This document shows positions 39,146-53,308 of a stretch of 64,000 bases of DNA, in pieces. The stretch comes from an uncultured Dokdonia sp. (lineage in GTDB: Bacteria; Bacteroidota; Bacteroidia; Flavobacteriales; Flavobacteriaceae). Within the stretch, counting starts at the first letter, position 1; each line of letters begins with the position of its first letter. The notes below the pieces were generated by a model. It did not search any database. It was not told where the DNA came from and worked only from the letters and a program-made list of their open reading frames with translations. The position numbers were made by a program, and so were the translations under genes. The stretch spans positions 496,001 through 560,000 of the forward strand of contig CANNDF010000003.1 in NCBI GenBank assembly GCA_947503305.1. Direction: 5' to 3'.

Positions 39146-39619
39146 ATGAATATCAAACTTCTGTGCATAGGAAAAACAGACGACGCACATCTTCAAACGC
39201 TTATTGATACTTATAGTAAGCGATTACAGCATTATATTAAGTTTTCAATAGAAATTATTTCGGATATCAAGAACTCAAAAAATCTGAGTGTACAACAGCA
39301 AAAAGAAAAAGAAGGAAAACTTATTTTAGAAAAAATTGCATCACAAGATCACTTAATCCTACTAGATGAAAACGGAAAAGAATTTAATAGTATAGGGTTT
39401 TCTCAGTTTTTGCAAAAAAAAATGAATGGAGGGTATAAAACTCTAGTGCTTTTGATAGGAGGTCCTTATGGATTTTCTGATACTATATACAAAAGAGCTC
39501 AAGGCAAAATTGCATTATCTCAAATGACTTTTAGTCATCAAATGGTGCGTCTTTTTATCACAGAACAGTTATATAGAGGTTTTACTATTTTAAAAGGAGA
39601 ACCTTATCATCACAGATAG
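39146..39619 (+). CDS. rlmH: 23S rRNA (pseudouridine-1915 N3)-methyltransferase
   Basis: 157 residues. SPOUT methyltransferase RlmH/RluM-class: begins MNIKLLCIGKTDDAHLQTLI, carries the AdoMet knot TLVLLIGGPYGFSDTIYKRA and ends MVRLFITEQLYRGFTILKGE PYHH-type tail. Methylates pseudouridine 1915 in helix 69 of 23S rRNA. Promoter sits almost on the start codon. Confidence 0.97.
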   Translation: MNIKLLCIGKTDDAHLQTLIDTYSKRLQHYIKFSIEIISDIKNSKNLSVQQQKEKEGKLILEKIASQDHLILLDENGKEFNSIGFSQFLQKKMNGGYKTLVLLIGGPYGFSDTIYKRAQGKIALSQMTFSHQMVRLFITEQLYRGFTILKGEPYHHR

Positions 39620-39661: not shown

Positions 39662-40315
39662 TTATGATTGTATTTTCCAAAAATCTGTAATGGCAGTTTG
39701 CGCCTCTTGATCTATGGCTACTTGAGCCCCTGTAGCATTTCCTATTATACCTGCAAGACCTCCTCCAAACTGTACTTCCATATTAGAAGCATTAACAATA
39801 GCGTCACAATGATGATCTTTATAATGTGTAACGCTTCCTTGTTTAAGCACTGTTTCTATATCTATTTTTGGATAATCACTATTAAGAATAGATTTAAATA
39901 TCAGATAATCAGGATGATCAAAAATCACAAAAACAAAACGAGAACCATCATCCACAGAAAAACATGCATCTATAATCACTTTTGCAAGTTCTTCTTTAGT
40001 ATCACCTATGCGCCCTCTAAAAATATTCCCTCCAATAAATGGAACTGCCATTTTACTGAGTCCATTTACTAGTAATAGATCATAGCAATTTATAATTGAT
40101 TGAGTTACCGAATCATTTGTGGGTTCAAAAATACCACCATGAGTGGTCATAGAACCGGTAGCTGCGTTAATAATGGCATGTATATTTTGAGATGAAAGAT
40201 TTCCTGATCGAGTGATCAATGCAGCCCCTCTAGGTAACATAGGGCCATTTGTAACAGTAAGTAAACTTTTATCAAGATCTGTTCCTTTGGTCGAAATAAT
40301 TTTAGAAAAAGTCAT
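39662..40315 (-). CDS. Macro-domain protein with swapped halves (apparent circular permutation)
   Basis: 217 residues. The C-terminal part (about 148-217) looks like the start of a macro domain: VLKQGSVTHYKDHHCDAIVN then ASNMEVQFGGGLAGIIGNA, i.e. the QGDIT...DAIVNAAN...GGGVAxAI core. The N-terminal part (about 1-145) looks like the rest of the same domain: LPRGAALITRSGNLSSQNIH (equivalent to CPxGxAxxTxG), AIINAATGSM, MAVPFIGGNIFRGR (xAFPxIxxGxxG), KEELAKVIIDACFS and FVFVIFDHPDYLIF. So the order of halves is reversed. Macro domains bind or hydrolyse ADP-ribose. Start and stop are clean and neighbours do not extend it. Confidence 0.75.
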   Translation of the reverse strand: MTFSKIISTKGTDLDKSLLTVTNGPMLPRGAALITRSGNLSSQNIHAIINAATGSMTTHGGIFEPTNDSVTQSIINCYDLLLVNGLSKMAVPFIGGNIFRGRIGDTKEELAKVIIDACFSVDDGSRFVFVIFDHPDYLIFKSILNSDYPKIDIETVLKQGSVTHYKDHHCDAIVNASNMEVQFGGGLAGIIGNATGAQVAIDQEAQTAITDFWKIQS

Positions 40316-40352: not shown

Positions 40353-41198
40353 TTAACTCGTACAATACATCTTAGTTGAATGTTTGCCTTTTACATAAAC
40401 AATCGTATTCTTACGTATCACAAACTCAGAAAGGCCTATATGAGATGGGTTCTCTGGACTCCAATCATAGGTGTATCCTAATTGTGTCCACGGATATCCA
40501 AACTCATGAAATTCTGTATCTGTACAATCATTATACTGTACGGCTCGTATGTGATTAAACCATTTTCGATAGGCATCAGTCACTGTATCAGGCATGTTGA
40601 GTTCACATGCGGTATCTGTTGTCTCATTATCAGGGCAAGGCCTATACAAATCATCAGGTTTTACCCATAATTCCAAAAAAAAGGTTTCTATCGTAAAAGG
40701 TTGCAAACCTAGTAATTGACGTAATCGCATATAAGGGTCTTTTTGAGTTTTAAAAAAACTCCGACAACTATCTTTTATGATAGGAGCTGCAGTTACCCAT
40801 ATATCATAAATTGAAGTATCATAGGCACCTGATTTTGGAAAATAGGATGGATCGCCTTTCCAGGATACCATTTGAACATAGCGCTCCCCTTGTATAAGGG
40901 TATCAATAAGGGTATTATTTCCTTTAATGGTTAATAGGTTTGAATATATTTTTTCTGGAGTAGGATTTTGTGCCGAAAGCATGGCTTTGGTAAAAAGGGT
41001 ATCCAGATATTTTACAGGTTCATAAATAAGAGGAAGCATTTTACCAGCTTTCGCCGAAGTTGTATCAGTAACTATCGTATCCTTTTCACTAGGAAGGTCT
41101 CCATTCGTTTGTTTACAGGTTGAAAAACTCAGTACAAAAAGAAACAAAAAAACAATAATCACAAGAAACCTAAGCCTAGATAATTGAGTAGTGATCAT
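40353..41198 (-). CDS. Predicted lipoprotein of unknown function
   Basis: The frame opens at 41255, but a start at 41198 (MITTQLSRLRFLVIIVFLFL) gives a proper lipoprotein signal ending VLSFSTCKQ. About 281 residues. The mature part has many Trp/Tyr, conserved-looking stretches such as FFLELWVKPDDLYRPCPD, ELNMPDTVTDAYRKWFNHIR and FHEFGYPWTQLGYTYDW, and four or more Cys (CRSF, CPDNETTDTACE, NDCTD, MYCTS). I do not recognise the family. It stands alone. Confidence 0.68.
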   Translation of the reverse strand: MITTQLSRLRFLVIIVFLFLFVLSFSTCKQTNGDLPSEKDTIVTDTTSAKAGKMLPLIYEPVKYLDTLFTKAMLSAQNPTPEKIYSNLLTIKGNNTLIDTLIQGERYVQMVSWKGDPSYFPKSGAYDTSIYDIWVTAAPIIKDSCRSFFKTQKDPYMRLRQLLGLQPFTIETFFLELWVKPDDLYRPCPDNETTDTACELNMPDTVTDAYRKWFNHIRAVQYNDCTDTEFHEFGYPWTQLGYTYDWSPENPSHIGLSEFVIRKNTIVYVKGKHSTKMYCTS

Positions 41199-41610
41199 AA
41201 CATGATATTTAGAAGCTATCGTAACTAACCAAAAAACAAATAGCGCTATAAACATAATACCTAATTACTACTCCATAACACGTAACTATACTGGAAACCA
41301 ATACACGTATAATTACCTGAGTTTCCTAGGAAGCTCTCTATCAAGTTGACTACCGTATCGTCATTTTGAAATGTAAAAAACAGAAAACAACAGAGATAAG
41401 ACGAGCAAATGTATGTACTAAGCCTTCTACATGATTTCTTTCTATAATCAAAATGAGTAAAAAGCAATTAAAAATGATGCTCTATTTTTAAATACAAAAA
41501 GAGTGAAAACAAGCAACCACGTAAAAACACCTGTTTTTTAATATTCTATTTCTTATCTAAGATATTTTATAGACCTTAGGGCATATTAACCAAAAACAAT
41601 TACCAAAATC
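41199..41610. other. Gene-poor stretch between lipoprotein and 41611 gene
   Basis: 412 bases without a convincing gene. It contains a minus-strand TACATTTG (41406-41413), an exact -7 match that could belong to the lipoprotein gene with a long leader. A 68-codon minus-strand frame (41261-41467) has no recognisable features. No clear terminator or repeat. Confidence 0.5.
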
Positions 41611-52621: not shown

Positions 52622-53308
52622 GTGAAAAAGCAGAAGATTATTGTATTGACTGGTGCAGGAATAAGTGCCGAAAGTGGCATCAAAACCTTTAGAGATGCAG
52701 ACGGTTTATGGGAAGGTCATGATGTTATGGAAGTCGCATCCCCTGAAGGATGGAGAAGAAACAAAGAGCTAGTATTAGATTTTTATAATCAACGAAGGCG
52801 ACAATTATTAGATGTCACTCCCAATGAGGCACATATAGCCTTAGTAAATCTTGAAAAAAAATACGATGTACATATTGTTACTCAAAATGTAGATGATCTT
52901 CATGAACGAGCTGGTAGTTCTCAAGTACTACATCTTCATGGAGAACTTCTTAAAGTACGCAGTACTTTTGATGAAGATCTTATCTTAGACTGGAAAACTG
53001 ATTTGAATATTGGTGATTTTTGCGAGCATAACCATCAATTACGACCTCATATTGTATGGTTTGGAGAAATGGTCCCTTTACTAGATACTGCTGCTTTCTT
53101 AGTAAGCCAGGCAGATTATATAATTATTATAGGAACCTCAATGCAAGTATATCCAGCCGCTGGATTAATAGACTATGTTCAGGCAAACATACCGATTCAT
53201 TTTGTCGACCCAAATCCTGCTGTATCTCCAAGGGATAACCTTACCATCCATAAAAAAACTGCAACTGAAGGAGTGCCTAAAATTGTACACTCTTTATTGA
53301 GCTTGTAA
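52622..53308 (+). CDS. cobB: Sir2-family NAD-dependent deacylase
   Basis: 228 residues, start GTG at 52622 (MKKQKIIVLTGAGISAESGI). Rossmann NAD-binding motifs GAGISAESGI and TQNVDDLHERAG, catalytic His106 in LHLHGELLKVR, LRPHIVWFGEMVP and IGTSMQVYPAAGLI. This is the deacylase (CobB/SIRT5-like) class, but the four zinc-ribbon cysteines are mostly absent: VRSTFDEDLILDW where E. coli has VRC, and only DFCEHNHQ after it. Removes acyl groups from protein lysines. Overlaps the convergent heme-binding gene by 15 bases. Confidence 0.93.
   Translation: MKKQKIIVLTGAGISAESGIKTFRDADGLWEGHDVMEVASPEGWRRNKELVLDFYNQRRRQLLDVTPNEAHIALVNLEKKYDVHIVTQNVDDLHERAGSSQVLHLHGELLKVRSTFDEDLILDWKTDLNIGDFCEHNHQLRPHIVWFGEMVPLLDTAAFLVSQADYIIIIGTSMQVYPAAGLIDYVQANIPIHFVDPNPAVSPRDNLTIHKKTATEGVPKIVHSLLSL

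Follow-up and report, generated by a model that had tools for sequence, protein, structure and literature searches.

The window, the whole 64,000-nucleotide stretch of an uncultured Dokdonia sp. contig analysed here, carries on its minus strand a gene for a protein in which the two halves of a macro domain stand in swapped order (Table 1). The initial annotation had placed this gene correctly at 39662-40315, and the 217 residues with clean start and stop that it described were borne out by an intact ATG and TAA. All of the motifs that it quoted (LPRGAALITRSGN, MAVPFIGGNIFRGR, VFVIFDHPDY, VLKQGSVTHYKDHHCDAIVN and ASNMEVQFGGGLAG) were found in the ORF. With the gene excluded from the codon table, its in-frame codon log-odds were 0.357 bits per codon. 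Among the 36 further ORFs in the window that reach 200 aa, 26 had lower values, and the other five frames of the gene gave at most 0.167 bits per codon. The GC3 of 0.166 lies at the low edge, with one of the 36 window ORFs lower. In its codon usage the ORF behaves as a real gene.

The permuted gene lies between a co-directional ORF, which is a possible operon partner, and the convergent rlmH. By eye, the 300-aa ORF at 40353-41255 has a lipoprotein-like start. Scanning of the window in six frames revealed no other macro-like segment of at least 25 codons, save one match of 5.5 bits (E ~0.7), which is at chance level. The initial annotation had named as fatal to its reading a longer tandem macro gene, disrupted by frameshifts, of which this gene would be the central part. 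With no neighbouring macro segment, and with gaps of 37 and 42 bp to the genes on either side, the gene does not look like such a fragment. A sirtuin (SIR2) gene is located at 52622-53308 of the window on the plus strand, about 12 kb from the permuted gene and with no sign of linkage; sirtuins are a possible source of O-acetyl-ADP-ribose.

Table 1 Features of the permuted macro-domain gene and its immediate neighbours, in window coordinates.
Feature	Residues	Coordinates	Strand	Remarks
Permuted macro-domain gene		39662..40315	-	217 aa; ATG 40315-40313, TAA 39664-39662
Second half of normal macro (β3, β4, α2, β5, α3, β6, last helix)	28-146	39878..40234	-	HMM and AlphaFold strands 32-35, 46-50, 89-92, 127-131
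Joining stretch, old C-terminus to old N-terminus	147-155	39851..39877	-	Rotated HMM aligns straight through
First half of normal macro (β1, β2, GGG loop, α1 start)	156-202	39710..39850	-	HMM and AlphaFold strands 157-159, 172-175
Loop 2, IGGNIF	94-99	40019..40036	-	Aligned normal macros mostly ISTG[IVA][YF]
IVNASN, the VNAAN motif	173-178	39782..39799	-	V174, N175, A176 and N178 invariant in permuted alignment A1
GGGLAG, loop 1	184-189	39749..39766	-	MacroD-type Asp and His absent
S161 in QGSVT	161	39833..39835	-	GDIT Asp in most aligned macros
Upstream co-directional ORF		40353..41255	-	300 aa; ends 37 bp upstream of the gene; no Pfam match
rlmH (SPOUT methyltransferase)		39146..39619	+	Convergent; syntenic anchor; 42 bp from the gene

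A normal-order HMM of 170 positions, built from 33 normal macro ORFs, matched the protein in two swapped pieces, one (20.3 bits) placing residues 28-146 on positions 56-167 and the other (27.5 bits) placing residues 156-202 on positions 4-48. Rotation of the HMM between α1 and β3 gave one contiguous match over residues 29-200 at 60.2 bits, together with a weak additional piece at residues 33-62 (8.8 bits). For 200 shuffled sequences, HMMER reported 157 with the normal and 169 with the permuted HMM, with maxima of 5.5 and 7.2 bits, respectively. The swapped order, with the second macro half first and the first half last as the initial annotation had read it, is real and above chance, and the core strands are rotated relative to the normal macro order, running β3-β4-β5-β6-β1-β2. 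The two best NCBIfam macro models likewise aligned residues 25-147 to positions 62-178 and residues 154-198 to positions 9-50. A blastp search of the ORFs from fetched loci (own locus excluded, some loci overlapping) gave 40 subject ORFs; both pieces were found in 20 subjects, and were swapped in 18 of these; the remaining 20 subjects gave the C-terminal part only.

Pfam Macro (PF01661) gave a single partial match to residues 12-101, scoring 28 bits where the cut-off is 22, and the permutation is thus hidden from annotation pipelines. Re-joining the halves in normal order, as first suggested, did not produce a single contiguous match: the Pfam score of 28 bits increased to just 29.4, and two pieces, of 30.0 and 19.6 bits, again resulted with the normal HMM. 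The match stays split because the 27 residues before β3 and the tail after α1 land in the middle of the re-joined sequence. A chance resemblance or an assembly artefact might be suspected for a gene seen in a single genome, from a draft assembly of 57 contigs. However, the scores far exceed those of the shuffles, and the gene is embedded in a 640-kb contig beside rlmH, a locus where the other rlmH neighbours show conservation within the genus, so that we regard this explanation as scarcely credible.

The break point was located by scanning cuts around the circularized profile. The best score was 59.8 bits (cut 54), or 60.2 bits (cut 56) in a second scan, with the optimum just before β3, and the ordinary ends gave 27.5 bits. 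Of eight held-out normal macros, seven peaked at cut 0 and one at cut 168, which adjoins cut 0 on the circle. A cut past β4 (cut 84) scored 54.2 bits versus 59.8 bits at cut 54, making β3-β4 worth about 6 bits. The segment RGAALITRSGNL (residues 29-40) aligns with β3 of normal macros, blastp alignments reach residue 30 or lower against many normal macros, and about 15 residues are left after the last profile match. These profile data show an approximate break point between helix α1 and strand β3, with the exact position less firmly based. A candidate duplicate of α1 in residues 1-27 was rejected, with 468 of 1000 N-terminus shuffles scoring equally well against an α1-β3 HMM.

Both Asn residues of VNASN, the GGG loop and the loop-2 aromatic residue F99 are conserved in the protein, and N97 occupies a position in loop 2 where normal macros have Gly. 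The Asp and His of the motif GGGVDG-AIH are the MacroD-type catalytic residues; the protein has GGGLAGIIG, with Ala and Gly in their places. The adenine-contacting Asp is replaced by Ser-161. Residues 152-200 align with residues 11-56 of AF1521 (1hjz), which sets residue 161 at position 20 if there is no earlier gap. In the published work on permuted macrodomains (PMC5087659), this Asp is D20 in AF1521 and D723 in ALC1, and the rice protein has F113 as the distal-ribose aromatic residue and D175 as the acid bonding to ADP-ribose. The spacing of 62 residues between F99 and S161 equals that between F113 and D175 in rice Q10MW4, suggesting that F99 and S161 may be their equivalents.

A structure was modelled with AlphaFold2 from an alignment of the protein with 60 unchanged natural macro half-fragments, which were chosen to align to the intended half, so that their placement is by design. 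The best model had a mean pLDDT of 66 and a pTM of 0.69. Its six core strands (Table 1) read as β3-β4-β5-β6-β1-β2, with a further short strand at residues 5-7, and 54 of the 217 residues, among them both termini and a large part of the α1 region, fell below a pLDDT of 50. The model obtained without an alignment had a pLDDT of 31. Because no alignment row apart from the query contains both halves, the way in which the halves pack together in the model owes nothing to covariation.

The top Foldseek matches in the PDB were macro domains with a probability of 1.00, mostly over 120-137 aligned columns; among the matches listed, the TM-score to the query was at most 0.44 and no E-value was 0.001 or lower, and isocitrate dehydrogenases appeared from rank 34 at a probability of ~0.6. 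A viral fold library likewise gave partial macro matches only. Partial Foldseek matches are to be expected for a permuted domain, whose two halves are out of reach of any one sequential alignment, and they constitute no proof of a permutation. Of the complete domain in swapped order that the initial annotation had described, the sequence order is supported, while folding of the protein as one macro domain has the moderate support of this model.

The halves might instead pair with those of a second molecule, forming a domain-swapped dimer and not a domain closed within one chain. Such a dimer is compatible with the monomer model, in whose alignment the halves share a row only in the query. The two termini of a macro domain are near each other, however, and with so short a joining stretch closing within the chain is simplest. 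In addition, the permuted APL structure is described as retaining the macro fold (PMC5087659). We therefore consider a swapped dimer very unlikely.

We searched for relatives in the genus and beyond. The protein gave no match at E 0.001 in 17 other genus genomes, and rlmH was found in all 18 genomes of the genus. Of 19 rlmH loci, several of them shortened by contig ends, only the window's own was matched by the gene in tblastn or by either macro HMM. A homolog of the 300-aa ORF was found beside rlmH at one of these loci, that of genus genome G011, where rlmH and this 62% homolog are about 360 bp apart; the permuted gene is missing from that stretch by tblastn and by both macro HMMs. At the G011 locus, 28 bases of the rlmH end (positions 1946-1973 of this locus) recur 150 bp on (2096-2123) with 96% identity, in the intergenic stretch that matches the place of the permuted gene, and this spot may be prone to duplications.

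Searches of genome contigs gave 49 pattern matches with the protein, none of them a relative, and at least 594 with the permuted alignment A1, for which eight loci were confirmed among the matches listed, all in normal order. No relative was present among 6 and 185 pattern matches in viral contigs, and plasmids and phages gave no match. A1 matched 153 of 395 phylum genomes, in which, among the matches listed, only the window's own protein, itself a row of A1, spans both halves. A second search covered ten genomes whose counts were weak or odd, and permuted order was found in none of the matches that could be decided; the match in G161 and one in G757 were partial. Of 325 class genomes, 59 matched A1, with only the window's own protein running through both halves, and five odd matches that were read included no permuted protein and one fragment. 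When the protein itself was searched against overlapping sets of 148, 397 and 296 genomes, 3, 13 and 18 genomes matched, none with a full-length colinear protein except the window's own. A match in G175 (E 0.005) was rejected as a relative, its ORF having no macro match above 1 bit.

The orthologs with conserved order to which the initial annotation had looked were thus not found, with no colinear relative in the genome, phage, plasmid and viral searches among the matches listed. As far as these searches reached, the protein appears to be a one-genome orphan within the searched genomes and the matches listed, and since no second copy was found, nothing points to selection across species. In this genome, the permuted profile detected no other macro among the matches listed and DarT gave no match; a Pfam Macro search found none, but the same search missed the permuted gene, so that it is a weak negative.

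Two other macro proteins were recorded in passing. The only Pfam Macro match in the 18 genus genomes, by the search that missed the permuted gene, lies on the minus strand of locus L013 in genome G007; we take this protein to be DarG-like and different from the permuted protein. A normal macro domain on the plus strand of locus L135 (genome G424) stands in a 485-aa frame and is followed by a further domain, which presumably resembles an ADP-ribosylglycohydrolase.

The distribution bears on a further explanation, in which the gene is what deletions spared of a tandem two-macro gene, namely the end of one domain followed by the start of the other, in a frame still open but with no working fold. 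Such a remnant would show exactly the observed order of halves, and it would agree with a gene found in one genome only, with the syntenic G011 stretch that has no macro match, and with the off-consensus S161 and N97. Against it, the two pieces between them account for positions 4-48 and 56-167 of the 170 HMM positions, with about 9 residues joining them; the codon usage, start and stop are intact; and no macro remnants adjoin the gene. A tandem macro gene was not noticed among the macro ORFs that were read, an observation made in passing. We judge a remnant of this kind to be unlikely.

Overall, we consider it likely that the ORF is a genuine bacterial gene encoding a circularly permuted macro domain, which is proposed to be a binder or weak hydrolase and to derive from a tandem duplication. 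In this protein the ends of an ordinary macro domain would be joined by the short linker and the new ends would lie in the α1-β3 loop, giving the strand order read from the profiles. The tandem duplication may have been trimmed at both ends, in the Dokdonia lineage or in an unsampled donor, and the permuted gene would have come to lie downstream of the 300-aa gene. Trimming of a tandem duplication at both ends is the route proposed for APL (PMC5087659).

As the protein is a one-genome orphan, we infer its function from its residues: it is probably an ADP-ribose binder or weak hydrolase, with binding accompanied by weak or no hydrolysis as the best guess. ADP-ribose or a derivative would occupy the usual cleft, where VNASN, the GGG loop and F99 are retained, and the protein would act as a binder or weak hydrolase instead of a MacroD-type enzyme. 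The distinct ADP-ribose-handling enzyme that the initial annotation had thought possible would thus be one lacking the MacroD-type catalytic residues. Precedent exists in permuted macrodomains that fold and bind ADP-ribose or PAR (PMC5087659).

Compared with normal bacterial macros (PF01661; YmdB, MacroD-like and AF1521), the protein shares both profile halves, VNAxN, the GGG loop, the loop-2 aromatic residue and the FVxFDxxxY strand. Unlike them, it has swapped halves, Ser in place of the GDIT Asp, no MacroD Asp or His, and an insertion in the β4-α2 region. A different arrangement was observed in a macro subfamily at loci L123, L124 and L016, which has a strand and helix like the usual last unit just before β1 (IVIDRNQEMVDSW in L123, on the minus strand) and no clear final β6. 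Rotated HMMs gained only 0.8 to 4.4 bits on these proteins, weak support for a move of the usual last unit alone to the N-terminus.

The initial annotation did not know permuted macro domains as a described family, a view contradicted by a published study that reports one in Dictyostelium APL and, by BLAST, proteins in rice and Arabidopsis (PMC5087659). There, APL binds PAR and its permuted structure keeps the macro fold, and crystal structures are given for the Dictyostelium (5LW6) and rice (5LW0; Q10MW4, with ADP-ribose) proteins. We found no bacterial permuted macrodomain in the open-access literature, with subscription papers and preprints outside the scope of the search. The APL and rice macrodomains share with the window protein the joining of the ordinary C-terminus to the N-terminus, with the second half first. 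APL is a multi-domain protein with FHA-like and PBZ domains (PMC5087659), whereas the window protein is stand-alone and bacterial.

The break points also differ, with that of 5LW0 judged by match ranges. A1, cut before β3, aligned its positions 54-170 with chain residues 34-159 of 5LW0, leaving 72 chain residues after the match, whereas a profile cut after β4 and built without the window protein (A6) matched in one stretch, positions 27-172 to chain residues 35-194. The match that crosses the joined ends in one piece covers residues 29-200 of the window protein and chain residues 34-159 of 5LW0. By these ranges, β3-β4 of 5LW0 follow α1, towards the C-terminal end, whereas those of the window protein are N-terminal (residues 29-50). 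From the different break points we infer a separate origin, and the protein looks like a permutation separate from the rice one.

We lean slightly towards the fuller claim of a second independent natural permutation of the macro domain, the first bacterial one in these searches, which is cut between α1 and β3, folds, and retains the binding of ADP-ribose or a derivative. If this is true, the macro fold tolerates new ends at more than one natural site. A working protein would show, as an experiment of nature, at which places the ADP-ribose fold can be opened, and one that does not work would be a snapshot of how permutations begin. The comparison suggests that macros in swapped order are not confined to slime-mould and plant proteins and that the break can fall elsewhere. 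The protein is a variant of the already described permuted domain, with a cut that differs from the rice one, and not a new kind of domain.
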